From assembly GCF_018885305.1 (NCBI RefSeq), contig NZ_CP076544.1:3224001-3288000 (forward strand): a DNA stretch of 64,000 nucleotides, given 5' to 3'. This document shows, in pieces, positions 46,554-64,000 of the stretch; positions within the stretch are counted from its first letter, which is position 1, and each line of letters begins with the position of its first letter. This stretch comes from Curtobacterium sp. L6-1. GTDB taxonomy: Bacteria > Actinomycetota > Actinomycetes > Actinomycetales > Microbacteriaceae. The translations under genes and the position numbers were made by a program. A model generated the notes under the pieces. It was not told the DNA's origin and did no database searches. It saw only the letters and a list, made by a program, of their open reading frames with translations.

Positions 46554-47633
46554 CTAGCGCGGGAGCTTCGGGGCGAAGAGGCGGGTGATGAAGCGGGCGA
46601 GCAGGTTGAGCAGCATCACGATGAGGATGAGGAGCAGCGCTGCCGTCCAGGCCCGGTCGACGAACGGCACCGGGTTGGCGCCCTGCTGCGAGTACTGCGT
46701 GTACGCGAACACCGGCAGCGTCATCATCGGGTCCTTGAACAGGTCGTAGTTCATGCTCGACGTGAACCCGGCGGTGACGAGCAGGGGAGCGGTCTCGCCG
46801 ATGACGCGGGCGATCGAGAGCATGACACCCGTCGTGATGCCGGCGAGGCTGGTCGGCAGGACGACCTTGACGATCGTGAGCCACTTCGGCACACCCAGGG
46901 CGTACGACGCCTCGCGGAGCTCCATCGGCACGATCTTCAGGACCTCCTCGGTGGAGCGCACGACGATCGGGATCATCAGGACCGCGAGAGCGATCGAACC
47001 GACCAGACCGAAGCGCGAGCCCGGACCGAGGATCAACGCGAAGAGCGAGTAGGCGAAGAGGCCGGCGACGATCGACGGGATGCCCGTCATGACGTCGACG
47101 AAGAACGTGATGCCCCGGGCGAGGGGGCCCCTGCCGTACTCGACCAGGTAGATGGAGGTCAGGAGACCGATCGGCACGCTGACGAGCGCCGCGAAGAGCG
47201 TGATCTCCAGGGTCCCGATGAGGGCGTGGACCGCGCCGCCGCCCTCCGAGATGACTCCACGCATCGAGTACGAGAAGTACTGGGCGTCGAAGCGGGCCAG
47301 GCCCCTGGCGAGCACCGTGTAGAGCAGCGAGACCAGCGGCAGGACGGCGATCACGAAGGCGGTGACGACCAGGGAGGTGATCAACCGGTCGACGGCCTTC
47401 CGCCCACCCTCGACGATGCGGGAGACGACGACGATGAGGACGTCGAACAGGACCGTGCCGAGGAAGACCGCGGCCACGATGTTGAAGTCCTTCGTGGCGC
47501 CGCCGGCGGCGAGCAGGGCGAACACCAGGCCGAGGGCGACCCAGCTGCCGACGAGGAGCAGCCACGGGACGGACTTGTGGAGCTTCCCGCTGGCGAAGAC
47601 GTTGCCGGCGGGCTGACGGAGTGCGAGGGACAT
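46554..47633 (-). CDS. pstA: Phosphate ABC importer permease PstA
   Basis: Permease of 359 residues with roughly eight helices; the N-terminal 110 residues hold two or three extra helices before the conserved core. The core includes [39 protein letters not shown], the ATPase-contact loop [20 protein letters not shown] and [18 protein letters not shown] 47633 is the start. Confidence 0.95.
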
Positions 47634-47653
47634 CGGGGGAGCGACCTTTCCCG

Positions 47654-48604
47654 TCAGGAGACTCGCTTGCGGACGATGTACCGCGCGAGCATGTTGATGA
47701 CCAGGGTGATGACGAAGAGGATCAGGCCGGAGGCGACCAGGGCGTTGAGTGCCGTCCCGGAGGCCTCGGCGAACTGCAGGGCGATGTTCGCGGCGATGGT
47801 CGACGGGTTGAGCGACCCGACCAGGTTGAAGGTGATGTTGGTCGACACCGACAGGACGAGCGCGATCGCCATCGTCTCGCCGAGTGCGCGGCCGAGCCCG
47901 AGCATGATCGCGGACACGATGCCGGACTTGGCGAACGGCAGGACCGACATCCGGATCATCTCCCAGCGCGTCGCGCCGAGGGCGAGCGCGGCCTCCTCGT
48001 TGAGGGTCGGCGCCTGCAGGAAGATCTCGCGCATGACGGCGGTCATGATCGGGATCGCCATGACCGCGAGGACGATCGACGCGGTGAGGATCGTGCGTCC
48101 GGTCCCGGAGACCTGTCCGGAGAACAGCGGGATCCAGCCGAAGTGCTCGTTCAGGAACTCGTAGAACGGGCGGACGAAGCGTGCCAGGACCACGATGCCC
48201 CAGAGGCCGTAGACGACCGACGGGACCGCGGCGAGCAGGTCGATGACGTACCCGAGCACCGGCGCCAGGCGGCGGGGCGCGTAGTGCGAGATGAAGAGCG
48301 CGATTCCGAGCGACAGCGGCACGGCCATGACGAGGGCCAGGAACGCCGACCACACGGTGCCGAAGACGAGCGGGCCGACGTAGTCCCAGAAGTTCGCCGC
48401 GTCGTTCGGCAGGTCGCCGACCTTCGCCGAGAAGGCGGGGATGCTCTGCCACACGAGGAACGCCGCGACGAGCGCGAGGACGAAGAGGATGAGACTGCCC
48501 GCCACGACGGAGGCGGTGGAGAACACGCGATCGCCGATGCGCACGACGGCCTTGGGCTTCGACGGGGTGGCGGTGTCCTGGTCTCGGACCGGTGCGGTCG
48601 TCAT
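47654..48604 (-). CDS. pstC: Phosphate ABC importer permease PstC
   Basis: Permease of 316 residues, about six helices after a short polar N-terminus. Signature segments are [20 protein letters not shown], the contact loop [20 protein letters not shown] and [15 protein letters not shown]. It lies 20 bp before pstA and 160 bp after pstS, with a hairpin in the latter gap. Confidence 0.96.
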
Positions 48605-48713
48605 GGGGCTCCTGTCGGAGGATCGCGCCGGGTGAACGCGAGGGGTTCGGGGGAGAGATGGTTCGTGCGGGTCCGGACGGGCGCGGTGGCAGCTCGCGTC
48701 GGGACGGACGAGA

Positions 48714-48753
48714 GCCCGGACGCCGGTCAGGTGGGTGGGACCGGCGTCCGGGC
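48714..48753 (-). terminator. 15-bp hairpin between pstS and pstC
   Basis: GCCCGGACGCCGGTC (48714-48728) pairs perfectly with 48739-48753 around 10 nt. It starts right after the pstS stop and probably limits read-through to pstCAB. Confidence 0.72.
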
Positions 48754-48764
48754 GCTGTCGGGAC

Positions 48765-49874
48765 TTACTTGATGGACGCGACCGCGGCTGCGGCCTTCTC
48801 CGACAGCTCGGACGACAGGGCGGCCGACTTGGCCTCCGTCGCGGCGGCCTTCTGCGCGTCCTCGGACACGACGTAGCCGAGGTACGCCTTCACGAGGTCG
48901 GCCTTGTCCTTGTCCTCGTACTCCTGGCACGCGATCGCGTAGGAGACGAGCACGAGCGGCCAGGCTCCCTCAGCCGTGTCCTTGCGGTCGATCGAGATGG
49001 CGAGGTCGTTCTCCTCGCGGCCCGAGGCCACGTCGGAGTCGGCCACGACCTGGGCAGCACCCTCGGCGGAGAGCTCGGTGGCCTTGTCTCCGACCATGAG
49101 CTTCGCCTTGTCGAGGTCACCGGCGCCGGAGTCGTCGATGTAGGTGATGGCGTTCGAGGCGCCCTGCATGGCCGAGGCCACACCCGAGGTGCCCTTCGCG
49201 CTGTCGCCGACCTGGAACGGGAAGGTCTGGCTCGGCTCCTCGGTCCACACGTCGGGGGCGTTCGCCGCGACGTACTCCGAGAAGTTCTGCGTGGTGCCCG
49301 AGTCGTCCGAACGGTGGACGACCGTGATGTTCGAGGAGGGCAGGTCGACACCGTCGTTGAGGGCGGCGATCTCGTCGTCGTTCCACTTGGTGATCTTGCC
49401 CGAGAAGATGCCCGCGATGCTCTTCGCGTCGAGGGTCAGGTCCGAGACGCCGTCGACCTTGTAGGCGATGGCGATCGGGGAGATGTAGACGGGGATGTCG
49501 ATGCCCTTGGAGTCCGCGGCGCAGTTCTTGAACTCGCCGGAGAGCTCCTCGTCCTTCAGCGCGGCGTCGGAGCCGGCGAAGTCAGCGGCACCGGACATGA
49601 AGTTCTCGCGACCCGCGCCGGAGCCGTCGGGCGTGTAGTTCACCGTGACGCCGGAAGCCTGCTCCTGGAAGCCGGCGGCCCAGGTGGCCTCGGCGGTCTG
49701 CTGAGCGGAGGAGCCCGAGCCGGTCAGGGTGCCGGAGAGGCTCGACATGTCACCCGTGGAGGAGGAGGACGACGAGTTGCTGCCCGCGTTGTCCTCGTTC
49801 GCCGCGCAGGAGGAGAGCACGACGGCGCCGGCGATCGCGATTGCCGCGACCGAGCCGATTCGCTTGATGTTCAC
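48765..49874 (-). CDS. pstS: Phosphate-binding lipoprotein PstS
   Basis: Periplasm-side phosphate receptor of 369 residues. Lipobox VVLSSC (Cys about 24) leads into a Ser/Asn-rich linker. Phosphate-site motifs are LTGSGSSAQQTAEATW, YTPDGSGAGRENFMSGAADF, AGSDA and HRSDDSGTTQNFSEY. GTG 49874 follows GAAGGGA. A four-unit PHO box lies 84-127 bp upstream, so strong phosphate-starvation induction is expected. Confidence 0.97.
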   Translation of the reverse strand: MNIKRIGSVAAIAIAGAVVLSSCAANEDNAGSNSSSSSSTGDMSSLSGTLTGSGSSAQQTAEATWAAGFQEQASGVTVNYTPDGSGAGRENFMSGAADFAGSDAALKDEELSGEFKNCAADSKGIDIPVYISPIAIAYKVDGVSDLTLDAKSIAGIFSGKITKWNDDEIAALNDGVDLPSSNITVVHRSDDSGTTQNFSEYVAANAPDVWTEEPSQTFPFQVGDSAKGTSGVASAMQGASNAITYIDDSGAGDLDKAKLMVGDKATELSAEGAAQVVADSDVASGREENDLAISIDRKDTAEGAWPLVLVSYAIACQEYEDKDKADLVKAYLGYVVSEDAQKAAATEAKSAALSSELSEKAAAAVASIK

Positions 49875-49957
49875 AGGGGTCCCTTCGGGAATGTAAGTGC
49901 AGTGGGACCGCTGTGTGGTCCCGGGGCCGGTGCTGACCCGGGAGTGACTGTAGGGAC

Positions 49958-50001
49958 GAGAGGTGACCGGGATGACGCTCTCCGGTGAACGGGAGGTGAA
50001 C
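49958..50001 (-). promoter_or_regulatory. PHO box of the pst operon (four 11-nt repeats)
   Basis: On the minus strand, reading toward pstS: GTTCACCTCCC, GTTCACCGGAG, AGCGTCATCCC, GGTCACCTCTC, contiguous at 11-nt period. The first two carry the full GTTCACC core known for PhoP in actinobacteria; the outer ones are degenerate, as is usual. An oppositely oriented GTTCACC lies at 50008. Confidence 0.85.
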
Positions 50002-50194
50002 GCGGGGTTCACCCGGTGCGGGTCGGCGGACACGCGTGCCGTCCGGGAGCAGGATCGGGGCACGCTGCCCACCCGGCGGCGCTGCTGGCGGGGACGCGCT
50101 CGCGCACCCTCGGTGGGTTCGCGTGCTGGGCGCTGCCAGGAGGCGCGGTGCGGTCCAGCGGGCCAGGGTCACCGCCGGCGACGACCGCTCCCGG

Positions 50195-51142
50195 TCAGGC
50201 GCTGACTGCGTTGCGGTGCGTCTCGACCGCCACGAGCTTGCGCCCGGCGATGTGCAGTACGGCGAAGTCACCGACCGACAGCATCGCCGCCCGGCGCAGG
50301 TCGAACCGCGAGTGGTCGTCGGCGGTGTCCGATGCGATCCGCGCGACGATGTCCGGCAGCACCGGGCCGTGCGAGCAGAGGACCGCGGACTTGGCCTTGT
50401 CCAGGCGCTTGCGGACGACCCTCGAGACGTCAGCGGTCCCGTGCTCGTAGGCGTCCTGGCTGATGTCCGGCGTGTCCGACACCCCGAGCTTCGTCCTGGC
50501 GGACAGGGGCTCGACCGTCGCGAGGCACCGGGCGGCCGTGCTGCTGACGATCTTCTTCGGGCCGAAGGCGGCGACGGGCGCTGCGAGCGACTTCGCCTGT
50601 GACCGGCCGACGGGCAGCAGGGGCCGGGTGGCGTCCGGGCCGTCCCAGTGCGAGCCCGGCACGGTCTTGGCGTGCCGGAGCGCGATGAGGGCGAACGTGT
50701 GGTGCTCGTTCGCCGCTGCGCGCTCGGCGAAGCGCTCCAGGATCTCGACGTCCCGCTCGTACGTCAGCCGCCCGCGGGCATCGTCGATCGCGACCCACTC
50801 GACGGCGGCGACCTCGTCGTTCGGACGGAAGGCACCTGCACGTTCGGACTCCTTGCGGGAGACCCGGGCCGACCAGTAGTGCACGACCTTGTCGCGCCCG
50901 CTCGGAAGCACGTACTCGGCCAACCCGAGCGGAGCGCCGAGGTGCACGCGGTACCCGGTCTCCTCGTCGATCTCACGCACCGCGGCCTCGGGCACGCTCT
51001 CGCCCGGGTCGACCTTGCCCTTGGGGAAGGAGACGTCCTTGTGGTGCTCGCGGTGGATCAGCAGGACGAACGGCTGACCGTCCTGCTCTCGCCACACCAC
51101 GGCGCCCGCGGCGACGACCGGACCAGACCGACCACCGCTCAC
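50195..51142 (-). CDS. MutT1-type Nudix hydrolase-histidine phosphatase fusion
   Basis: A 315-residue fusion. The Nudix domain (about 5-140) has a perfect box: [20 protein letters not shown] then TGY. The C-terminal histidine phosphatase domain (about 150-310) opens with LRHAKT, an RHG variant. In mycobacteria MutT1 of this layout cleans oxidised and diadenosine nucleotides (family knowledge). The GTG start overlaps the ppk stop by 4 nt, so it is coupled to polyphosphate kinase. Confidence 0.9.
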
Positions 51143-53304
51143 CGAGTGGAGCGCTTCCGTGCCGAGATCGTCCGCATGAGCACATTCTGCACGTCGGCGA
51201 GCGGCTTGCCGTCCTCGTCCGTCGAGCGTCGGGTCCACTCGCCGTCCGACTCGAGGTGCCAGGAGCTCGTCGTCTCGGCCATGGCCAGGTCGAACATCTC
51301 CTGCACCTCGTTGATGTGGGCCGGCGTCGTGAGCCGGACCAGGGCCTCCACACGGCGGTCGAGGTTGCGGTGCATCATGTCGGCGCTGCCGATGAAGACC
51401 ATCGGGTCGCCGTCGTTGTGGAACGCGAACGCACGCGAGTGCTCGAGGTACCGGCCGACCACGCTGCGGACCCGGATCGTCTCGCTGACGCCTTCGAGGC
51501 CGGGCTTGAGCGAGCAGATCCCACGGACCCAGACGTCGATCGGCACCCCGGCCTGGCTCGCGAGGTACAGCGCGTCGATGATCTGCTCGTCGACCATCGA
51601 GTTGACCTTGATGCGGATGCCCGAGGGCTTGCCGTCGCGGGCGTTCTGCGCCTCCGACTGGATGCGCTTCACCAGGCCCTTCCGCAGGTGCAGCGGGGCG
51701 ACGAGGAGCCGCTTGAACTTCTTCTCGATCGCGTACCCGGACAGCTCGTTGAACAGGCGCGTGAGGTCCTTGCCGACGGTGTCGTCCGCGGTGAACAGGC
51801 CCATGTCCTCGTAGATGCGCGAGGTCTTCGGGTTGTAGTTGCCCGTGCCGATGTGGCTGTAGTGCTTGAGGGTGCCGCCCTCCTGCCGGATGACGAGCAC
51901 CAGCTTGGAGTGGGTCTTCAGCCCGACCAGGCCGTAGACGACGTGCACGCCGGCCTTCTCGAGCTTCCGTGCCCAGGTGATGTTGTTCTGCTCGTCGAAG
52001 CGTGCCTTGATCTCGACCAGCGCGAGGACCTGCTTGCCCGCAGCGGCCGCGTCGATCAGCGCCTCGACGATCGGAGAGTCCCCGGAGGTGCGGTAGAGCG
52101 TCTGCTTGATCGCGAGCACGTTCGGGTCGGCGGCCGCCTGCTCGAGGAACGCCTGCACACTCGTCGCGAAGGACTCGTACGGGTGGTGGACCAGGACGTC
52201 GCGCGAGGCGATCGCCCGGAAGAGGTCGGGCTTCGTGTTCGGCTCGCCCGGCTGGAACTGCACCGGCGTCGTCGGCACGTGCCGCGGGTAGTGCAGATCG
52301 GGGCGAGCGAGCTTCGCGATCTCGAACAGGCCGCCGAGGTCGAGCGGCGACGGCAGTCGGTAGACCTCCTGCTCGGTGATGTCGAGCTCGCGCACCAGCA
52401 GGTCGAGCGTCACCGGGTCCATGTCCTCGGTGATCTCGAGTCGGATGGGCGGACCGAAGCGACGGCGCAGCAGTTCCCGTTCGAGCGCCTGGATCAGGTT
52501 CTCGGCCTCGTCCTCCTCGATCTCGACGTCCTCGTTGCGGGTGATGCGGAAGACGTGGTGCTCGAGCACCTCCATGCCCGGGAACAGATCGGGCAGGTGG
52601 TTCGCGATGAGGTCCTCGAGCGGGATGTACCGCAGACGGCCGGAGTTGTCGTCCGGGAGCTTGATGAACCGCGGGTAGTTCTGCGGCACCTTGAGGCGCG
52701 CGAACTCCTGCCGCTGCGACTTCGGGTTCCGCACCCGGACGGCGAGGTTCAGCGACAGACCCGAGATGTACGGGAACGGGTGGGCCGGGTCGACCGCGAG
52801 TGGCATGAGCACCGGGAAGATCTGCTCGCTGAAGTACTCGCGCATGCGCAGGCGGTCGTCCTCGCCGAGGTCCGACCAGTGTTCGACGTGGATGCCGGCG
52901 GCGTCGAGGTCCGGCTTGAGCGAGCCGATGAACGCCCTCGCGTGGCGCTCCTGCAGCTCGTGGGCCTTCATCGCGATGTCGCGGAGGACGTCGCTCGGCG
53001 CCCGACCGACGTTGGTGGGGACCGCGATGCCGGTGTCGATGCGGCGCTTCAGCCCGGCGACGCGGACCATGAAGAACTCGTCGAGGTTCGAGGCGAAGAT
53101 CGCGAGGAAGTTCGCGCGTTCGAGCAGCGGCTGTGTCCGGTCCTCGCCGAGCTCGAGCACGCGCTGGTTGAAGCGGAGCCAGCTGAGCTCACGGTCGAAG
53201 TACCGGTCCGAGGGCAGCGACTCGTGCTCGACCTCCACGACCTCGTCGAAGTCGTCGAGGTCGTTCGCGACGGAGTCGCCGTCCAGCTGCGGTTCGGTGT
53301 CCAT
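51139..53304 (-). CDS. ppk: Polyphosphate kinase 1
   Basis: Makes long-chain polyphosphate from ATP. The 721 residues show the four PPK1 regions: N-terminal [20 protein letters not shown], the [17 protein letters not shown] stretch, and H465 in [10 protein letters not shown] as the likely phosphorylated His. The C-terminal [20 protein letters not shown] lies between. ATG 53304 is chosen. Its promoter region has one GTTCACC unit (53365-53375, minus strand), a weak hint of Pho control. It overlaps the mutT1 gene and is 320 bp plus one gene from pstS. Confidence 0.96.
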
Positions 53305-53514: not shown

Positions 53515-53796
53515 ATGTCGCGTGTGCTTTCGACCGAACAGGCGAAGACCGCCATCCGCCAGATCCAGTCCATCGTGAACGGTGGGTTCACGGACCAGAT
53601 CTCGCAGCTCGACGCCCAGGGGCGCATCCTGTCCGACTCGAACGTGTGGGACGGCCCGCTGGCGTCGAACTTCCGTGGTTCGACGTGGCCGGAGACCAAG
53701 GCTGCGCTCGACAAGGCGAAGACCGAGCTCGAGCAACTCCGGACGCAGCTCGACAAGATCTCGCAGGACATCTTCACCGCGGGTGGCGGCGCGTAA
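53515..53796 (+). CDS. WXG100-like small secreted protein
   Basis: A 93-residue two-helix protein of the ESAT-6/WXG100 type, likely exported by a type VII secretion system. The turn motif is W45-D46-G47 in [11 protein letters not shown]; the second helix [20 protein letters not shown] is long and polar. The expected helices flank the turn. ATG 53515 has AGAGGGG upstream; the open frame extends further but lacks support. It is separated by 108 bp and a strong hairpin from the RHS gene. A secretion partner for that protein is the natural inference. Confidence 0.82.
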
Positions 53797-53812
53797 CACC
53801 ACACACGCAGCG

Positions 53813-53844
53813 CCCGGGTCGCCGATGAGCATCGGCGGCCCGGG
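53813..53844 (+). terminator. Hairpin between WXG100 and RHS genes
   Basis: CCCGGGTCGCCGAT (53813-53826) pairs with 53831-53844 over 14 positions (one G-U), loop GAGC. A second short hairpin, CCGCGTC/GACGCGG, follows at 53848-53862. Partial termination would make WXG100 more abundant than the toxin. Confidence 0.65.
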
Positions 53845-53904
53845 TTCCCGCGTCCGACGCGGACCATCACGACCAGCACCACTTCTTCCGGGGGGACGAC
53901 AACC

Positions 53905-56900
53905 GTGTCAGGACAGCTGCACGCCAACACCGATCCGATCGAGTTCGACAACGCCACCGCCGACGCGCTCGCCAGCGCGATGCGCAGCGCGGCGAGTGCG
54001 ATCGACGGCCAGCTCGGGAGTCGCCAGTCGTACGTGTCGACGGCCTCGATGGAGTTCCGCGGCCACTTCTCGCAGCTCTTCACCGCGAACGCGAGCATCG
54101 CGAAGAGTGATGCCTCCACCATCTCGGACATGATGCGCACGGTCGCGGGTTGGGTCGACGAGATGAAGCAGGCTGCCGCGGAGGAACGCGAACGCCGCCG
54201 CAAGGCTCGCGAGTGGGAAGAGCAGCAGGCAGACCGCAACGGCTTCGAGAAGTGGCGGGACGACTTCTTCGGGACGGGGAACCCTCCCGACATCGAGAAC
54301 GAGGACGCTCCGTCCTTCCCCTCTGCGGATGCGCAGCCGAAGCCGCGCCAGACTCCGTCACCGGGCTCCGGCTCGGGAGGAGGGGGAACGTCCTCGGCGA
54401 AGCCCGAGGACCTCCGGTCCTTCGCGACCGGCTCAGCGACGTTGAACACCGAGTTGTCCGGCAAGCCCGGGGTGCTCCGCGGCAAGCTGTCCGACTTCGC
54501 GTCCCGCTGCTCGTGGGGCACGATCAACGCCGACGGGCTCGTCACCGGCTTCGAGCGGTGGCTGGCGGCCAACGACCAGGACGTCGCCTGGGCGAAGACC
54601 ATCGCCGACGCCTTCGCCGCCGCCGGGGGCGAGGGCTCGGTCTCGACCGTGTCCGACGCTGCGCTCGGCGCAGCCCTGCAGGCTGCGGGCGTTTCGGCCA
54701 ACCGGACCGACCTGCAGATCGACCCGCCCACCGCCTACGGCGCGCAGCCGACGACCGGCTACTCGATGGACCCGGTCAACACGACGACCGGCAACTTCCT
54801 CGAGCCGGAGCTCGATCTCTCCTTCGACGGTGCAGCCGCGTCCCTCCGGATCTCGCGCATGTACAACTCCCTCGACCGTCGCGTCGGGGTGTTCGGTCCC
54901 GGGTGGGCGTCCGTCCTCGAGACCCGGCTGCTCCTCGATGACGAGGGCGCGTCCTTCGTCGGCGCCGACGGCCGGCTCGTCCGCTTCCCCCGGTCCGGCA
55001 CCGGTTGGGCGCGCGGTGTCGGTGAGAACCGGTGGCTCGCGGCGGAGGGCGAGCTCCTGGTCGTACGGGACAACGAGGGTGGCCGCATCGACTTCACCCC
55101 GGCTGGTCTCTGGGTCGGCGAGAGTGCCGGACCCGGCACCGCCGTGTCGGTGGAACGCGACGCTGCCGGTGCGGTCGTGCGTCTCCGGCACGAACGCGGT
55201 CGCTCCGTGGACGTCGAGTACGTCCACGGTCGTGTCGCCGTCCTGCGGGCCTCCGACGGGCGCCGGGTGGAGTACGAGTACGACGACCGCGGGCGTCTGG
55301 TCTCGGCCGCGACCCCGCACGGGACCAGGACGTACGGCTGGGACGACGACGACCTCATCGTGACGGTCACGAGTGCCGACGGCGTGCGCGAGGTCGACAA
55401 CGTGTACGACGCGCAGCGTCGTGTCGTCGAGCAGACCAGCCCCCACGGCCGTCGGGTCCGGTTCGCCTACCTCCCCGGCCGCGTGACCGTGGTCTCCGAC
55501 CAGGACGGAACGCGTTCCGACTCCTGGATCGCCGACCCGAAGGGTCGACTCGTCGGGGTCATCGACTCGGACGACCGTCGACAGTCGATGAGCTACGACC
55601 AGCACGGCAACCTCGTGTCGGCGACGGAACGCGACGGTTCGGTCACCGTGCACGCCTACGACGCACGGGGCCGCCGTACGAGGACGGTCACGCCGACCGG
55701 GGGTGACCTCACGTACGGCTACGACGACGCCGACCGAGTCACGACCGTCGTCACGGAGAGCGGCAGCGTCGTCACGTACGAGTACGAGGGTGACGAGCGT
55801 GACCCGGCGGTCGTCACCGACCCGATGGGCGGCCGGACCGAACTCACCTGGGACCGCGGCCTGCTCGTACGGGTCGTCGACCCCACCGGTGTCACGCTCA
55901 GCCTCGACCACGACGCGTGGGGCGAGCTCGTCGCCGTGACGAACGCCGCCGGGGACGTCGCACGGATCGAGCGGGACGCCGCCGGTCACGCCGTCGCGAC
56001 CATCAGCCCCACCGGCGCCCGCACGGAGTACCGCTACGGAGCCGACGGTCAGGTCGTCGCTCGCCGAGACCCCGACGGCGCGACGTGGTCGGTCGAGTAC
56101 AGCGCGGGTGGGCGCGTCAGCGCCGTCACCGACCCGATCGGTGCGCGGACCGTCCTCGCCTACAGCCCGGACGGCGAACTCGCCTCCACGACCGACGCGC
56201 TCGGACGGACCACTCGTCGGACGTACGACGACCAGGCCAACCCGCTGCAGGTCACCCTGCCGAGCGGTGCATCCTGGACCTTCGCGCACGACGCCTTGTC
56301 GCGCCTCCAGTCCGTCGTCGACCCCACCGGCGCAGTGTGGCGCCGGGAGTACGGGGTCAACGGCGACCTGCGCGCCGTCACCGACCCCACCGGCGTCCGC
56401 AAGGAGTTCTCGGACGACCCGGCCACCGGCATCTCCACGTTGTCGGACGCGTTCGCGACGACCACGGTCCGGTCCGACGAGTTCGGACGCCCCGTCGAGG
56501 TGACGTCCGACGAGACCGGTTCCGAACTCGTCACGTACGACGCGTGTGGCCGACCGGTCGAGCTGGTGGACGGTGAGGGAGGCCTCACCCGCATCGAGCG
56601 AGACATGAGCGGTCGGATCAGCGCCATCGTGTCACCGAGCGGTGGCCGGACGACCTACGAGTACGACGCCTGCGGCCGGCCGTCGGCCGCCACCGACCAC
56701 CTCGGCGCCCGGACGACGATCACCTACGACGCAGACTCACGGGTCGTCGCGCGGACCCTGCCGACGGGTGACGTCGAGCGCATCGAGTACGACGTCGTCG
56801 GGCGCGTCGTCGCGCGGACCACACCGGGAGACGGAACGGCTCGCTACCGCTGGGACGCAGCCGGGAGGCTCGTCTCCGTCCACGACGCACGTCACGGCCG

Positions 56901-59253
56901 ACGTCGGTTCCGCTACGACGCAGCGGGTCAGCTCATCGAGGCCGAGAACGGCCTGGGCGGAGTGACCGCCTACGCGTACGACGCCGACGGGCGCGTGACC
57001 AGCGCGACCGACCCGGTGGGTGGTGTCACCCGGTACGCCTACGACGCTGCCGGACGGCTGATCGGCATCACGGACCCGCTGGGCAGGACGACCACCGCAC
57101 GACTCGACGCCGCCGGCCGTCGCATCCAGCAGACGGACCCCGACGGCGGGGTGGTCGAGTGGGCGTACGACGCAGCAGGACGTGAACAGCGGCTCTCGGT
57201 GGACGGCGTCCTCGTGGCGGAGACCACGCACGACAGGGCGCGACGGACCGTCGTCGTCACCGACCACACGCGTGGCCCCGGGCGGGACATCGAGCACGAG
57301 CTGTGCTTCGACCGGCGGGGGCTGCTCGTCCGGCGGAGCCGTGGTGGGCGGGCGATGTCGTGGGAGCACGACGTGGACGGCCGTCGTGCTGCCCGTACGG
57401 ACCCCGACGGCAACCGCACGACCTGGCGCAGGGACGCCGCCGGCCGCGTCGTCGGCGTCGAGCGGGAAGGGCTCGCGCCCGCCACGTTCACCCTGGACGC
57501 CCTCGGGCGCGTCGTCCAGGCTTTGACCGGTGACGTCGTCCAGTCGTGGTCGTACGAGCGCGGGACGCTCGTCGAGCACACCGTGACCACGCCGGAGGGC
57601 GGCACGACGACCCGCATCGACCACGACGAGGACGACCGCATCGCGGCGATCACCGGCGCGGACGGCCGCAGGACCTACGTCCACGACGCCGCCGCGCAGC
57701 TCGTCAGCGCCCTCGACGACAGCGGCCGTGGTCGGACCTGGCGGTACGACGCGGCCGGGCGCCTCGTCGCCGAGACCGTCGACGGTGCCGAACTCCGGCA
57801 CGAGTACGACGCCGCCGGGCAACTCGTCGCCACCACCGGCGCTGACGGTGCGCGGACCGAGTACGTGCACGACGGACTCGGACGGCGCGTCCGGCGGACT
57901 GCTCCGGACGGTTCGACCACCGAGTACGCGTGGTCGGACCTCGGATTCCTCGCCGGTGTCGTCGAGCGGGACCCGCTGTACGACGAGACCGGCCGACTCG
58001 ACGTGTGGACCGACGCCCTCGGTGAGGTCGCGGAAGTCGGAGGAGTCGACACCTGGTGGGACACCGCCGCGGATGTCCCGGTCCTGACCTCGGTCGGCGC
58101 GACGCCGGTGCTGGAGGCCCCGGGCGGGATCCTCGCCGTCGACGGGAGCTGGACAGCAGCGAACTGGCGCGGGGCGCGTGCGACAGATGCGACCGATCCC
58201 TGGGCTCTCCTCGCATCGACCAACGGGATCGGCGGCGGACCTGCGCTGCCGTCCGGTGTCGGGCTGACTCCGGGCGGAAGCCTGAGCATCGGGGGGATGG
58301 AGTGGCTCGGGGCACGGGTGTACGACCCCGTGGCGAAGGGCTTCCTCTCGACGGACCCGCTCGCGCCGGTCGTCGGAGCTGGGTGGTCGGGAAACCCCTA
58401 CTCGTACGCGGGGAACGACCCGCTGCACGCGGTCGACCCGCTGGGGCTGCGGCCGGCGACGGACAAGGACCTGCAGGCGTACCGGGATGCGCACCAGGGT
58501 TCGCTCAAGACGTGGGCGGATGAGCATGCGTACGTGATCGCGGGGGCAGCGTTGGTCGTCGGCGTGGCTCTCATGTTCACGGGCGTCGGCGGGCCGGCAG
58601 GCATCGCCCTCATGGCGGCTTCTGGCGCACTGATCTCCGGCGGAGTGTCGGTCGCGAGCCAGAAAGCGCAGTCCGGTTCTGTCGACTGGGGCAAAGCCGG
58701 AGTCGACACGGTGATCGGGGCAGTGGGAGGGGCAGCCGGAGGAGGTGCCGCCCTCGGGCTGTCGAAGCTCGCGCCGGCTGCCGGCAATCTCGGCGGAACG
58801 GCGGTGCAACGTGCGGTCACGCCGGTGTTCTCGTCGGCGGGACGATCAGCGGTCGCTGCCGGGACATCCGGTGCGGCTTCCAACATGACCGACTACGCCT
58901 TCAACGGCAAGAACCAGACGGTCGGCGGATACATCCAGAACGCGGCGACCGGCTTCGGTACTGGAGCGGCCTTCAGCCTCGGCTCAGGCAGAGCGAGCGG
59001 TGCAGTCATGGACCGGCTCGGCATCGAGCCTCGATTCCCTACCGGACGACACGTCGACATCGGCGATCACGCCATGGCTCCGAACGTCGCCCGGTGGAAC
59101 ACCGCGGTCGATGGGGTAGTCGACCACGTCGCGGGAGGGGTGGGCAGCGTGGTGAACGACGTCCTCGTCGGTAAGGATCCAGGAGACTATCTGCAGGACG
59201 GGATCAACGGCGCGATCTCCGGTGCGAGCGGACCAACAGTTCCGCTGCACTGA
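53905..59253 (+). CDS. RHS-repeat polymorphic toxin-like protein
   Basis: Giant 1,782-residue protein. Order: helical WXG/LXG-like N-terminus (about 1-115) with a charged coiled segment ([16 protein letters not shown]); a Pro/Gly-rich linker (about 145-170); a DUF6531-like start near 290 ([19 protein letters not shown]); then many YD/RHS repeats (about 380-1400). The RHS-associated core ([37 protein letters not shown]) ends near residue 1515. The last 267 residues are a Gly/Ala-rich hydrophobic zipper followed by an unrecognised tail. Lacking a Sec signal, it is probably exported via WXG100 partners. GTG start after GGGGGG. Confidence 0.9.
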
Positions 59254-59288
59254 GTCCGCCGCTGATCCGAACGATGATGGGAATGACC

Positions 59289-59735
59289 ATGGCCGCATCC
59301 ACGAAGACCGATGCCAGTGCGAAGCCGAGGCGCTCGAAGCGACGTGACCGTTTCGTCGCGATCGGGATCCTCGTACTGGTGGTCCTGGTCCCAGTGCTCG
59401 TCATCTTCGTCGGTCCGATCACGTTGAAGGCCTACGACGCTTCCCACCGGGTCGAGGTGTCGTGCGAAGTGCTTTCCGCACGAACGGGCGTTGGTTCGTC
59501 GCACTCAGTCAAGGGCATCGGTTCGTCGACCAATCAGGTCGTGATCGAGACTTCTGACTGCGGGACGTTGACGTTGCGCTGGGGCGTGACGAGGGACAAC
59601 AAAGAATCAATCGCTGACGGGTTCGCGCCCGGGACGACGTGGAAGTTCGATGTCGGTGCAGGTTCGTACCGGCTGCACCCGTTCTTGAACACCATTCGCC
59701 AGGCTGTCTTCGTGAAGGACTTCCGACGAGCGTGA
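59289..59735 (+). CDS. Small membrane protein, candidate immunity protein
   Basis: A 148-residue protein with one N-terminal transmembrane helix (IGILVLVVLVPVLVIFV) and an exported domain containing SCEVLSARTGVGSSHSVKGI and TSDCGTLTLRWGVTRDNK. It begins 35 bp after the RHS stop, the usual place for the cognate immunity gene; its C-terminal domain recurs in two decayed copies and one intact paralogue downstream. Several ATGs (59274, 59277, 59283, 59289) are possible; 59289 has GGGA upstream. Not recognised as a named family; the immunity role is inferred. Confidence 0.65.
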   Translation: MAASTKTDASAKPRRSKRRDRFVAIGILVLVVLVPVLVIFVGPITLKAYDASHRVEVSCEVLSARTGVGSSHSVKGIGSSTNQVVIETSDCGTLTLRWGVTRDNKESIADGFAPGTTWKFDVGAGSYRLHPFLNTIRQAVFVKDFRRA

Positions 59736-59993
59736 ACCCGGTGACGGGTGCTGGAGGAAACGTTGGGTCGAGCACTTCCGGTAGGGAAATTGGATCGCCG
59801 TTCGGTCAGGTCGCGATCACGACGAAGGAGTGCGGTCCGCTCATCCTCCGGCGAGGGGTGACAGCAGACAACAAGGCGATCGCCGCGAGGCTCGACTCGG
59901 ATCGACATCGGCGAATCCTCGGTCCGGTACAGGGAAGCTCTTGTGCGTCTGCGCGAGGAAGTGATCGTCTTCGGTTTCTCGGAGGATCCGTGA
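59736..59993 (+). pseudogene. Truncated, frameshifted copy of the immunity-like domain
   Basis: The DNA matches 61207-61480 in long blocks, including 41 identical bases (59946-59986 versus 61431-61471). It lacks the membrane-helix part and shifts frame after codons for VTADNKAIAAR, so the remaining end is read out of frame. A residual 92-codon GTG frame (59732-60010) overlaps the preceding stop but only its first part is homologous. Confidence 0.8.
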
Positions 59994-60034
59994 CGAGGCT
60001 CAGTTCATGATGCGTCCGGGATTGGAACGGCACA

Positions 60035-60403
60035 GTGAGTAGGACGGTTGAATCTGGTACTTTCCAGCAGCCAAGTTCGCTCGTGTTGGGATCTGTTTCG
60101 GTGCTGACGGCAGTCATCTTCCCCGTCCTTTCCGTCGGCGATCGCGTTGGCGGCGCTCTCCCCGTCGCGCTGATCGGTGCCGCTGGCGGGGTGATTCTCA
60201 TCGGAGGGGTCTTCTGTCTCTGCCGCGCCAGCATCGGTACACCGGTGCTGGTGATCTCGATGCTTGCTCTCATGTTCGTCAGTCGCCAGATCGGCGGGAT
60301 TTGGCTGCTCCTCATCCCCAGCTACATCCTGAGTGCTTTCGGCAGCGCAGTGCTCGGAGGGCATCTCAGATTTCTTCGTACTCGAGGCGCGAAGAGGCGC
60401 TGA
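60035..60403 (+). CDS. Small polytopic membrane protein (N-terminal half of a paralogue)
   Basis: A 122-residue protein with about four hydrophobic segments, beginning MSRTVESG and ending RFLRTRGAKRR. Its layout matches the N-terminal membrane half of the intact paralogue at 60735 (MSRTTVIW, then four helices). It may still be a functional membrane protein or the 5' part of a broken gene, as its C-terminal domain lies out of frame downstream. GTG 60035 has GGAACGG upstream. Function unknown. Confidence 0.55.
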   Translation: MSRTVESGTFQQPSSLVLGSVSVLTAVIFPVLSVGDRVGGALPVALIGAAGGVILIGGVFCLCRASIGTPVLVISMLALMFVSRQIGGIWLLLIPSYILSAFGSAVLGGHLRFLRTRGAKRR

Positions 60404-60699
60404 TGTCTCCGCGCTCTTCGCCTTCGTGCTGCTTCTCGTCTTGTTGGGACCCACGATTTCAAGAACTACGACAGCGCGCAGAGAACGACGATCGGTTGCA
60501 AGTTGACAGCGGCTTGCGCCGGTGCCACTTCAGTCGATCGTCGACCGGAGTCGGCACGTCCGCGAACCAGGTCGAGCACCGTTCGCCAGATTGTGGCTCG
60601 CTCGTGATGAGCGGAGGGCTGACCACCGAGGCGGCCGAGAAGAAGGCGGACGAGGTCGAAATCGGTGAGCGCTACGACGTCGAGATCGATGGTCAATGA
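60404..60699 (+). pseudogene. Frameshifted C-terminal half of an immunity-like paralogue
   Basis: Three frames together rebuild the family: a hydrophobic stretch ALFAFVLLLVLLGPT in one frame (from 60411), FKNYDSAQRTTIGCKLTAAC in another (from 60458), and STGVGTSANQV with PDCGSLVMSGGL in the third (from about 60541). Multiple frameshifts after the 60403 stop indicate decay. The last frame ends in an ATGA overlap (60696-60699) with an in-frame ATG of the next gene. Confidence 0.72.
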
Positions 60700-60734
60700 C
60701 TGAACCCGGACCGCGTCGACACAAGTTGAGGCCG

Positions 60735-61478
60735 ATGTCCCGGACGACGGTGATCTGGAACTCAGGAATCGTGGTTGTCTTCCTCGCCCTGGCACTTGCC
60801 GCTGCGCTGCGCGGTGCCACACCGATCGACCGGACGCTTTCGAGCGTCGTGCTCCCGTTCGTCGTCGGCGCCGTGTTCGCAGCATTCGGGCGCGGGTGGC
60901 TCCTGGGCGTGCTCATGCTCGTTGCGGTTGGCGTTCCTCTTCTCGACATGGCCGGGCTGACGGACTTCCCTCTTGCGAGAGCCGGCTGGTTCTTGTCCGT
61001 CCTGGCGGGGTGGTTCGTCGGCGCCATGATCGGACAGCAACGCGGCCAGCGCAGAACGACACCAGGGGTGGGAGCGCAACGGCGCCGCGGGAACGTGCTG
61101 GTCATCTTGATGTTGAGCGCGATGGCGCTCGTCACCGTGGTGATCCTCGGCGGTTCGTGGGCATGGAAGGCCTACGACCGCGCGCACGTGATCTCCGTCA
61201 CGTGCACCGTGACGGGTGCCGAAGGAGACATCGGATCGAGCACTTCCGGCAAGGGAATCGGATCCTCATTCGACCAGGTGGCGATCATGACGAAGGAGTG
61301 TGGTCCGCTCATCCTCCGTCGAGGGGTGACAGCAGACAACAAGGATGCGATCGCTGCGAAGCTCGAAGCAGGAGGCTCGACTCGGTTCCAGATCGGCGAA
61401 GCGTCGTTCCGGTACCGGGAGGCCCTTGTTCGTCTGCGCGAGGAAGTGATCGTCTTCGGTTTCTCGGAGGAACCGTGA
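60735..61478 (+). CDS. Polytopic membrane protein, intact immunity-like paralogue
   Basis: A 247-residue membrane protein: about four N-terminal helices (residues 5-100), a basic loop (GQQRGQRRTTPGVGAQRRRG), a fifth helix near 125, then an exported domain with SCTVTGAEGDIG... and TKECGPLILRRGVTADNKDA homologous to the protein at 59289. It differs from that protein by the extra helices. ATG 60735 is supported by the MSRT start shared with the 60035 paralogue and by a GAGG site; ATG 60696 overlaps the remnant's stop. Role inferred from the RHS context. Confidence 0.65.
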   Translation: MSRTTVIWNSGIVVVFLALALAAALRGATPIDRTLSSVVLPFVVGAVFAAFGRGWLLGVLMLVAVGVPLLDMAGLTDFPLARAGWFLSVLAGWFVGAMIGQQRGQRRTTPGVGAQRRRGNVLVILMLSAMALVTVVILGGSWAWKAYDRAHVISVTCTVTGAEGDIGSSTSGKGIGSSFDQVAIMTKECGPLILRRGVTADNKDAIAAKLEAGGSTRFQIGEASFRYREALVRLREEVIVFGFSEEP

Positions 61479-61867: not shown

Positions 61868-64000
61868 ATGTCATTGCGCACGCAGCATCCAGGGGTTCGA
61901 ACGATGAACGGTCGCGCGCTCGCCGCGGTCGCGATGGCGGGTGCTGCTGCGATGGTCCTGGCGGGGTGCACCTCATCCGACCGGGCGGTGGAGAACCCGT
62001 CCCGCGTTCTGCAGACCGTCGACACGCGTCTCGCCGCGGACGGATCGATCACCACGATCTCCGACACCGCGATCTCCGTGGGCAAGGACGACTCATCGTC
62101 CTCCGTCACGCAGCACGAGGCAGCGAAGGCAGCGCGGGACCTCCCGTTGCGCGTCACGACGCAGTACACGACGTCGAAGAAGAGCGGCACCGACCTCGCC
62201 GACCTGGCGGGCTACTCGGGCCGGGTCGAGATCGACCTGACCGTCGAGAACCTGACCGTCCGGTCACGGAACCTGACCTACGACGTGGCGGGCGCCTCCA
62301 GGACGACCCCGGCGCTCGTCGGCGCACCCTTCAGCATCGCCGCCTCGACCGTGCTGACGGGGACGGCGCCGAACCGGGTCGTCACCGACAGCGCCGACGC
62401 GGGCACGGCGACCGACGGCGTCGTCAGCGCGAACGGCGACGGGGACGCCGTCGTGCAGTGGGGTCGGCTGCTGGCGCCGCCGACGTCCGGTGCGAGCAGC
62501 ACGCTGCACCTCGTCGCGAACGTCGAGGACTTCGCCGCGCCGTCGTTCGACCTCGCGGCACAGCCGGGCGTCTCCACCGACCTGTCCTCCACCGGCGTGA
62601 TGGACGCGGCGTTCGGGTCCGACACCGACTCGGAGCTCGCCCTGCAGCGCCGGACGATCGACCTCATCTCGCAGGTGAACGAGGTCCTGGCGCGCGCGGG
62701 CAGCACGATCACCGAGGTCCGCTCCAACCTCGAGACCACCTCGGCGACGCTCGGCGTCCGCACGGCCGAGCGGCTGAAGGAGAGCAGCACCTCCCTGGCG
62801 AGCACGATGAAGTCGCTGTCCGGGCAGCTCGGGTCGTTGAACTCCGACCTCGGGGCGACGGTCGGTGCGACCCAGTCGACGGTCCTGCAGCAGCTGCAGG
62901 AGACCACCACCAGCCTCGACTCGCTGCTCGGCGACACCTCGGCCACCGTGCCGACGCCGGCGATCGACGGCAACGGCTGCGCCGCGGAGCCGCAGCCGGC
63001 CACGGGCGGCGCCAGCGTCTACGGCAACCTCCTCCGTGTCTCGGCGCAGCTCGCCGGGTACGCCGAGGCGAGCGAGGCCTGCAAGCAGCAGGTCAGCACA
63101 CAGCTCGCGGCGTCCGTCGGGCCGAGCGACCCGACGGCGGAGAAGTGCGCCGTCGAGACGGCGCGCAACTCCCTGACCTGCGCGCTCTTCGCTTCCTCGA
63201 CGACGATCACACAGGCGCTGACCGGCCTCGTCGACACCGGCGACAAGCTCGCCGACTCGTTGAAGCCGCAGCTCGCGCAGGACGCCATCGACAGCTACGG
63301 CAGGCTCGACCAACAGCTCGCGGGCATCGACACGATCCTCGCCGACCTGGAGCAGAACTCCGGTTCGGGCAACGGTGACACGCTCCTGGCACTGCAGCGG
63401 CTCGAAGAGCTGGTCCGCGACGGACGCCAGAGCGTCAACCCGGTCACCGAGCAGATCCGAGCGGTGCACAGCCAGGCAGAGGGCGCCCGGGACGTCATCG
63501 GCAACGTCGGAGACTCCCGGCTCTCAGGGTCGATGCAGGCGCAGAACGCCGCGCTCGCGAAGCGCATCTGCGAACTGGTCAGTCCGACGTCCAACCCGGA
63601 CGGGCCGGACGTCCTGCCGACACTCCCCGGGCTGTCCGAACGGCAGGCGGACGAACTCCGCTCGTACCTGACCACCACCCCGTGCGTCGATGACGGCGAC
63701 GGCCGGGAGCTCTCCGCCCCGTTCCCGTTCCAGCAGCCGATGGACGCCCGCTTGGCTGACCAGTCGGTGCGATGGGACGACGTCATCGTGCAGACCGACC
63801 TCGACGACACCTCGAAGGGCCTCGGCGCGGCCATCGACACGTTGCGCCGGACGCTGCGGGACGTCGACGACGCCCGCGCAGCACTCCAGGATCGTGTGAC
63901 CACCGGTCAGGGCACGGTGTCGGGCGCCCTGCAGCAGCTCAAGGACGCTGCTGCCGGTGCGAACGCAGCAGGTGACGAACTCAAGGGCAAGCTCGACACC
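61868..64000 (+). CDS. Long coiled-coil lipoprotein (3'-partial)
   Basis: At least 711 codons open to the window end. A lipobox VLAGC (Cys near residue 37) marks a surface lipoprotein. A beta-rich domain (about 60-240) precedes long helical segments rich in Ser, Thr, Leu, Gln (SNLETTSATLGV, ANAAGDELKGKLDT at the end), resembling coiled-coil envelope proteins. Four Cys pairs in the middle may form disulfides. ATG 61868 follows GAGGGGG; ATG 61904 would also give the signal peptide. Not recognised; by position it could serve the T7-type or RHS locus, but this is weak. Confidence 0.75.
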   Translation, partial: MSLRTQHPGVRTMNGRALAAVAMAGAAAMVLAGCTSSDRAVENPSRVLQTVDTRLAADGSITTISDTAISVGKDDSSSSVTQHEAAKAARDLPLRVTTQYTTSKKSGTDLADLAGYSGRVEIDLTVENLTVRSRNLTYDVAGASRTTPALVGAPFSIAASTVLTGTAPNRVVTDSADAGTATDGVVSANGDGDAVVQWGRLLAPPTSGASSTLHLVANVEDFAAPSFDLAAQPGVSTDLSSTGVMDAAFGSDTDSELALQRRTIDLISQVNEVLARAGSTITEVRSNLETTSATLGVRTAERLKESSTSLASTMKSLSGQLGSLNSDLGATVGATQSTVLQQLQETTTSLDSLLGDTSATVPTPAIDGNGCAAEPQPATGGASVYGNLLRVSAQLAGYAEASEACKQQVSTQLAASVGPSDPTAEKCAVETARNSLTCALFASSTTITQALTGLVDTGDKLADSLKPQLAQDAIDSYGRLDQQLAGIDTILADLEQNSGSGNGDTLLALQRLEELVRDGRQSVNPVTEQIRAVHSQAEGARDVIGNVGDSRLSGSMQAQNAALAKRICELVSPTSNPDGPDVLPTLPGLSERQADELRSYLTTTPCVDDGDGRELSAPFPFQQPMDARLADQSVRWDDVIVQTDLDDTSKGLGAAIDTLRRTLRDVDDARAALQDRVTTGQGTVSGALQQLKDAAAGANAAGDELKGKLDT

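Follow-up and report, generated by a model that had tools for sequence, protein, structure and literature searches.

A candidate RHS toxin tip and its adjoining putative gene for membrane-anchored immunity behave as one cassette beside a type VII-like secretion cluster of Curtobacterium

In Curtobacterium sp. L6-1, a 64,000-nucleotide stretch of DNA (hereafter the window; positions 3,224,001-3,288,000 of a single 3.40-Mb contig) carries a gene for a candidate RHS polymorphic toxin, followed by an array of small genes for membrane proteins. The candidate toxin ends in a variable tip, and the first gene of the array, 59274, codes for a protein with one transmembrane (TM) helix and a domain with two conserved cysteines (the two-Cys domain). 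Comparison with other RHS loci strongly supports the view that the tip and the 59274 product are a matched toxin-immunity pair. The comparison also shows that the tip and its TM/two-Cys gene move and diversify as one cassette under a conserved unit of WXG100-type gene, leader and cage, and that displaced cassettes leave their immunity genes behind as the array. A specific toxin-immunity candidate pair is now available for an actinobacterial type VII-like cluster. Its elements are:

53905..59253, plus strand: RHS polymorphic toxin candidate of 1782 amino acids (aa) with leader, DUF6531, RHS cage, pre-toxin and tip (open reading frame (ORF) and profile matches)
58804..59250, plus strand: tip module, residues ~1634-1782, Gly/Ala-rich, all-helical in a low-confidence model
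59274..59735, plus strand: cognate immunity candidate, 153 residues, intact, with a basic N-terminus, one TM helix and a two-Cys domain that is probably outside

Sixty RHS loci of the genus and that of the window, 61 in all, were oriented and scanned in six frames; of 65 RHS-leader matches of at least 250 bits, G065:C329, G026:C134, G040:C1:1472586 and the truncated G036:C8 were left out. A two-Cys gene started no more than 150 bp from the RHS stop codon at 20/20 loci with the window's tip, and at 0/41 loci with other tips. Among the 34 closest loci, a set in which the 900-aa gene does not come next in L055, L063 and L065, the adjoining two-Cys gene was present at 20/20 loci with the tip and at 0/14 without it. 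Thirteen of these 14 carry the two-Cys family farther along, so that mere presence of the family fails to explain the adjacency. On the cage tree the tip label changes 10 times, and the phylogenetically independent pairs agree in 7/7 cases (p = 0.016). Furthermore, a separate scan of 66 genomes of the genus gave 25 tip matches, 24 of them followed by a two-Cys gene within 29-115 bp; the single match that was not so followed was the weakest (E = 8.9e-4). Beyond the genus, the adjacency was found at 4/4 loci at family level (the RHS gene of G377 lies in more than one frame), in 2/3 cases in G512 and in 1/1 in Arthrobacter gallicola. At most nine candidates were scored per genome in the family- and order-level searches, and misses there mean little. 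At L118:5708-8859 of G512, which belongs to another family, ORFs of 85-352 aa hold tip matches, with a two-Cys gene behind every one of them, an arrangement that amounts to a row of small tip-immunity pairs. Judged by linkage alone, the putative cognate immunity gene is the one directly downstream of the RHS gene. An earlier note on this DNA had proposed looking for co-occurrence of tip and immunity across genomes, and it was found, in the 24 of 25 matches of the genus and at loci of other genera.

The adjacent immunity genes were then compared with the parts of the RHS protein by a Mantel test on 18 of the 20 loci, L052 and L067 being omitted as near-duplicates of L053 and L066. Immunity distances followed those of the tip (rho = 0.42, p = 0.0005; 0.45 given the cage), followed the pre-toxin more weakly (0.21, p = 0.018), and did not track the cage (-0.09). 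The tip itself tracked the cage weakly (0.22, p = 0.011). These comparisons indicate that the candidate immunity gene diversifies with the tip, not with the cage.

A record of earlier exchanges is also preserved, since remnants of tips stand ahead of some later immunity genes in the arrays. Eight remnants were counted (a match of 8 bits in L039 was not), of which that in L055 has no later immunity gene. In six of the other seven, a single locus supplied both the closest full tip and the closest adjacent immunity protein (permutation p = 0.0017): the window for L035, L049 for both L045 and L060, L042 for L040, L066/L067 for L054, and L054 for L064. For the L050 remnant, the longest piece, the two sources disagree. 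The orphan immunity protein of L035 (genome G035) is 83-89% identical to the 59274 product, depending on the alignment, and the remnant ahead of its gene matches 45 residues of the window's tip at 87% identity; thus the ancestor of that genome seems to have carried a toxin like the window's. Because such remnants provide a readable record of past exchanges, immunity specificity should be predictable before experiment, and the G035 orphan would be expected to protect against the window's tip. Taken together, the linkage counts, the co-diversification, the independent pairs and the remnants support what the earlier note had suggested, namely that the RHS protein is a polymorphic toxin and is paired, in a type VII-like setting, with a membrane-anchored immunity protein of its own.

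The tip is carried by more than one genus. The tip region of P0021 is 99% identical to that of the window, and relatives covering 89-100% of the query were found in proteins of Curtobacterium, Arthrobacter, Paenarthrobacter, Microbacterium and Leucobacter. Many other RHS relatives cover just about one third of the 267-residue tip-region query; this third corresponds to the pre-toxin, and these proteins carry other tips. The window's protein thus has the variable C-terminal tip under a conserved core that is typical of Rhs polymorphic toxins. The earlier note had not recognised the tip, and no known toxin family was matched in Pfam or NCBIfam. PADLOC gave no match with the four proteins submitted, and a PDB sequence search with the tip returned a single match (E = 0.098), judged to be due to chance. 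A match in a Burkholderiales metagenome-assembled genome (L122, 42 residues, 41%) was likewise taken as chance. When 18 tips were aligned, four glycines proved to be the invariant positions in the tip part; S176, G229, N236, G261 and P262 are conserved in at least 90%, a level reached by none of the acidic, His, Cys, Arg or Lys positions.

Of the structure predictions proposed in the earlier note, that of the immunity candidate was informative and that of the tip was not. The model of the 59274 product has one TM helix and a small domain that resembles SSB/PriB folds, which are OB folds; the tip model is helical, of low confidence, and too poor in quality for a fold search. The predicted two-Cys domain of the 59274 product is probably outside the cell, and hence the tip probably acts at the membrane. 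With 70 two-Cys members, Pfam gave sub-threshold DUF6234 matches in 11/70 (best E = 0.0011). DUF443 was not detected in the 59274 product (sub-threshold DUF4231 alone, in a search at E 0.1), and it was absent among the matches listed for the 70 members (25 of 30 families).

The remaining genes of the array had been read as part of four tandem copies or fragments of one membrane-protein family. This did not hold; the array is mixed, with three apparent families: the two-Cys family, that of 60035, and that of the N-terminal half of 60696. Behind 59274 it contains:

59741..59990, plus strand: decayed two-Cys piece in more than one frame, closest to the last array gene of relatives
60035..60403, plus strand: intact orphan immunity-like multi-TM protein of the second family, 122 aa, 4-5 TM-like segments
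about 60532..60687, plus strand: decayed two-Cys piece without TM, 75% identical over 52 aa to an L035 copy
60696..61064, plus strand: N-terminal half of a fusion gene, a 4-TM part of the third immunity-like family, 62.5% identical over 112 aa to an L038 copy
61065..61478, plus strand: remainder of the fusion gene (its C-terminal half), joined in frame and coding for TM plus two-Cys domain

Within the window's own genome, two-Cys matches are confined to this locus, and the free-standing relatives P0001-P0016 have 144-173 aa. Genes of the 60035 family lie 21, 21 and 75 bp behind the RHS genes of L068, L069 and L059, which lack the window's tip and whose own tips are alike by eye. The N-terminal half of the fusion matches P0017-P0020, which have four TM segments and a different soluble domain, and the matching L038 copy retains its own soluble half. 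Third-family genes start 35 bp behind RHS genes without the window's tip in L045, L051 and L061, and in L043 the soluble part of this family lies at +377. The label "Imm1-like" for the soluble half of P0017, P0018 and P0020 found no support in Pfam. In the loci scanned with the model of the third family, fusion of this family to a two-Cys domain was found in the window only. Since the second and third families sit behind RHS genes with other tips, the window shows one live cassette together with immunity-like genes, orphan or recombined, from two other families. The ratio of nonsynonymous to synonymous substitution (dN/dS) was 0.11-0.22 for the 59274 gene, and 0.20-0.28 for the two-Cys half of the fusion against three relatives, so that both are under purifying selection.

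The upstream part of the locus and the parts of the RHS protein are as follows:

53515..53796, plus strand: WXG100-type partner, 93 aa, with W-D-G (ORF; sub-threshold WXG100 matches)
53905..54354, plus strand: leader, residues 1-150, aromatic-x-G, with related stretches in other proteins of the genus
54769..54987, plus strand: DUF6531, residues 289-361 (73 bits, cut-off 24.1)
58306..58449, plus strand: Rhs-associated core domain, residues 1468-1515 (TIGR03696, 45.4 bits, cut-off 32.5), beyond which the tip region starts
58450..58803, plus strand: pre-toxin linker, two hydrophobic segments; the first part of the linker is common to RHS proteins with other tips
61868..64000, plus strand, running beyond the window: lipoprotein-like protein of ~923 aa (likely start 61904), start of the type VII-like cluster

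The two ORFs on which the earlier note was built, for a 93-residue WXG100 protein and a 1,782-residue RHS protein, are both present. The first scored below the curated cut-offs (Pfam WXG100, 16.4 bits against 27.3; NCBIfam WXG100_ESAT6, 19.5 against 44.85); we name it WXG100-type for its size and central W-x-G, and do not class it as a Pfam member. Its W-D-G is kept in 34/34 short ORFs that match it (the window's counted), and it is likely to be co-secreted with the RHS protein. In the second, PF05593 RHS repeats occur in 24 stretches, and PF20148 and TIGR03696 exceed their cut-offs. Its N-terminus had been called WXG/LXG-like; an aromatic-x-G at leader residues 41-65 is present in 56/61 RHS proteins examined, and no LXG domain was matched in the leader at E = 0.1 in Pfam or NCBIfam. 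Named relatives of the window's proteins are mainly from Curtobacterium. Upstream of the WXG100-type ORF, on the minus strand at 46554-53304, the genes presumably code for phosphate uptake (as an operon), for a Nudix protein and for a polyphosphate-kinase-like protein. In L053 (at 6713; G025) a second WXG100-type ORF lies 3' of the RHS gene and its immunity gene.

Behind the array, the 923-aa lipoprotein-like protein is followed by a 452-aa single-TM protein, a 1428-aa ATPase with FHA and FtsK/SpoIIIE domains and, on the opposite strand, a Ser/Thr kinase gene. This secretion-type cluster does not figure in the earlier note. The ATPase (L123:4687-8970) has the domains of TsdC of the type VII subtype T7SSd (FHA, 49.3 bits; FtsK_SpoIIIE, 156.9 bits), and the kinase agrees with TsdD (Pkinase, 171.9 bits; TM-like segment at 385-403 of 705). 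No TsdH-type small single-TM protein was called in L123, where the 452-aa single-TM protein is found. The 923-aa protein has one hydrophobic segment by hydropathy (residues 5-23) and no C-terminal TM segment of the TsdI type, and for this reason the cluster, which resembles T7SSd in its predicted products, is not assigned there. ATPase orthologs (E = 0) were present in 35/36 genomes with an RHS-leader match, the exception being G017, and in 0/30 without one; genomes lacking an ortholog gave matches of 30-36% identity, or none. In G020 and G045 the RHS genes and the ATPase lie on separate large contigs, and in G036 the truncated RHS gene alone adjoins the ATPase. At that locus (L109:4296-6434), a truncated RHS gene (leader only, 84% identical) is followed by two-Cys genes and then by the ATPase cluster, apparently an emptied version of the window's locus. 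Four further leader-related matches occur in the window's genome (G000), beyond the window. Three are ORFs of ~630-660 aa (L124:2037-3989, L125:1829-3805 and L126:2123-4024), each followed by a lipoprotein-like gene, with several paralogues in a row in L126; the fourth (L127) has no clear ORF. The three ORFs are candidates for further substrates with another immunity family.

Several observations weigh against a strict toxin-immunity relationship. Two-Cys domains also occur away from RHS genes, some in short orphans. The earlier note had raised the question of whether the membrane genes occur widely without an RHS neighbour, and in part they do: the family is present in 36/36 genomes of the genus with an RHS-leader match, and also in 6/30 without. 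At family level the domain was found in 10/398 genomes and the tip in 5/398; the five tip genomes all have both, and 5/10 genomes with the domain have no tip match. In L095-L099 and L101-L104 membrane proteins of 222-318 aa carry the domain behind an N-terminal extension, and no RHS cage lies within ~5 kb. These extended proteins are perhaps an older form of the domain that is not linked to toxins.

We consider it likely, on the evidence of sequence comparison, that the window encodes, as part of a type VII-like secretion cluster of actinobacteria, a locus for competition between bacteria, with a tip that the 59274 product blocks. The WXG100-type protein and the RHS leader would provide the export signal for the FHA-FtsK ATPase encoded ~7 kb downstream, and the cage would deliver the tip to a neighbour cell. 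The helical Gly/Ala-rich tip may then attack the cytoplasmic membrane from outside, probably by insertion rather than catalysis; siblings would be protected by the membrane-tethered, outward domain of the 59274 product. The genes 60035 and 60696 would be orphan or recombined immunity genes against other tips. A bolder proposal, which we hold only tentatively, is that this is a new mode of immunity to a membrane toxin, a non-enzymatic, helical and Gly/Ala-rich tip, which would insert from outside, being stopped on the outer face by a tethered OB-like disulfide domain; 60696, with the polytopic part of one immunity family fused to the outward domain of another, would then be a natural two-headed immunity protein.

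Alternatively, the tip could be an enzyme acting on an envelope substrate, e.g., lipid II or a membrane lipid, with the tethered domain blocking its active site as in TelC-TipC. The N-terminal TM segment, outside inhibitory domain and tandem paralogues of TipC (PMC6193138) resemble the architecture predicted here; nevertheless, the conserved tip positions are glycines, S176, N236 and P262 rather than acidic, His, Cys, Arg or Lys residues, and the tip matched no Pfam or NCBIfam enzyme, so that we judge catalysis improbable. The two-Cys protein adjoins the tip and carries a TM segment, as might be expected if it served the tip as a chaperone or in export, or the secretion cluster as an accessory. 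Yet its gene tracks the tip and not the leader or cage, and comparable loci whose RHS gene has another tip lack it in the adjoining position. Orphan copies also survive where there is no live tip, some of them away from RHS genes. These observations make such a role very unlikely. Finally, it is scarcely credible that the tip is a degenerate stub or one that lacks a toxin, with the array as genetic debris: no known toxin domain was found and several array members have decayed, but tip relatives persist at 89-100% query coverage in several genera, the 59274 gene is under purifying selection, and tips have been exchanged repeatedly under one cage.

This candidate toxin-immunity pair can be set beside several known systems. 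Curtobacterium was not treated among the matches listed in paper searches on such systems, and one paper listed is on a Rathayibacter genome. The literature compared contained neither of the two families, tip or immunity, nor the predicted fold of the latter; the fusion gene, the fossils that still bear pieces of tip and the association with the ATPase were likewise not found there. RHS toxins at type VII loci are already in print, for LrhA-LrhI (PMC10327511) and Olsenella uli (PMC11217815). LrhA-LrhI, encoded beside essC8 of the Listeria T7SSb, shares with the window DUF6531 and an RHS cage, a neighbouring WXG100 gene, a type VII ATPase, and a candidate immunity gene immediately 3' with a TM segment near the N-terminus of its product (PMC10327511). 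It differs in being a Bacillota T7SSb system, with 1656 residues, three small partners and a 261-residue immunity protein (PMC10327511), whereas in the window the cluster is actinobacterial and of FHA-FtsK type, the tip matches no family, the immunity candidate has 153 residues and an orphan array follows. T7SSd of Olsenella and Bifidobacterium likewise combines WXG100 proteins, an FHA plus FtsK/SpoIIIE ATPase and a one-TM Ser/Thr kinase (PMC11217815). In O. uli an Rhs protein lies alongside, as in the window, and its immunity protein is predicted to be cytoplasmic; TsdI has 1654 residues and a C-terminal TM segment (PMC11217815), in contrast to the 923-aa lipoprotein-like protein without one and the 452-aa single-TM protein of the window's cluster.

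In TelC-TipC of the Streptococcus T7SSb, immunity also combines one N-terminal TM segment with an exported inhibitory domain, location and inhibition being predicted for the window, and TipC paralogues stand in tandem with the first as cognate (PMC6193138), as is probably so in the window's array. TelC is a lipid II phosphatase, and TipC folds into a crescent made of three helices and a seven-stranded sheet (PMC6193138); in the window, by contrast, the carrier is an RHS protein, the tip is rich in Gly and Ala, and the immunity domain is smaller, has two conserved cysteines and is predicted to resemble SSB/PriB. In TspA-TsaI of the S. aureus T7SSb, as in the window, the C-terminal domain of the toxin is polymorphic and the locus holds several membrane homologues of the immunity gene (PMC7456083); TsaI is a DUF443 protein, whereas the 59274 product has one TM segment and no DUF443 match, and depolarisation, which is shown for TspA (PMC7456083), is a proposal for the window's tip. 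Immunity arrays formed by displacement or recombination have been described (PMC5361080, PMC9484751). In the type VI secretion arrays of V. cholerae, attributed to sequential effector displacement (PMC5361080), and in polyimmunity loci (PMC3482391), old immunity genes are retained behind a new effector-immunity pair, as appears to be the case here. The window differs from the former, a type VI case, and from the latter, a general survey, in that its RHS gene stands at a type VII-like cluster and that tip remnants precede several of the orphans.
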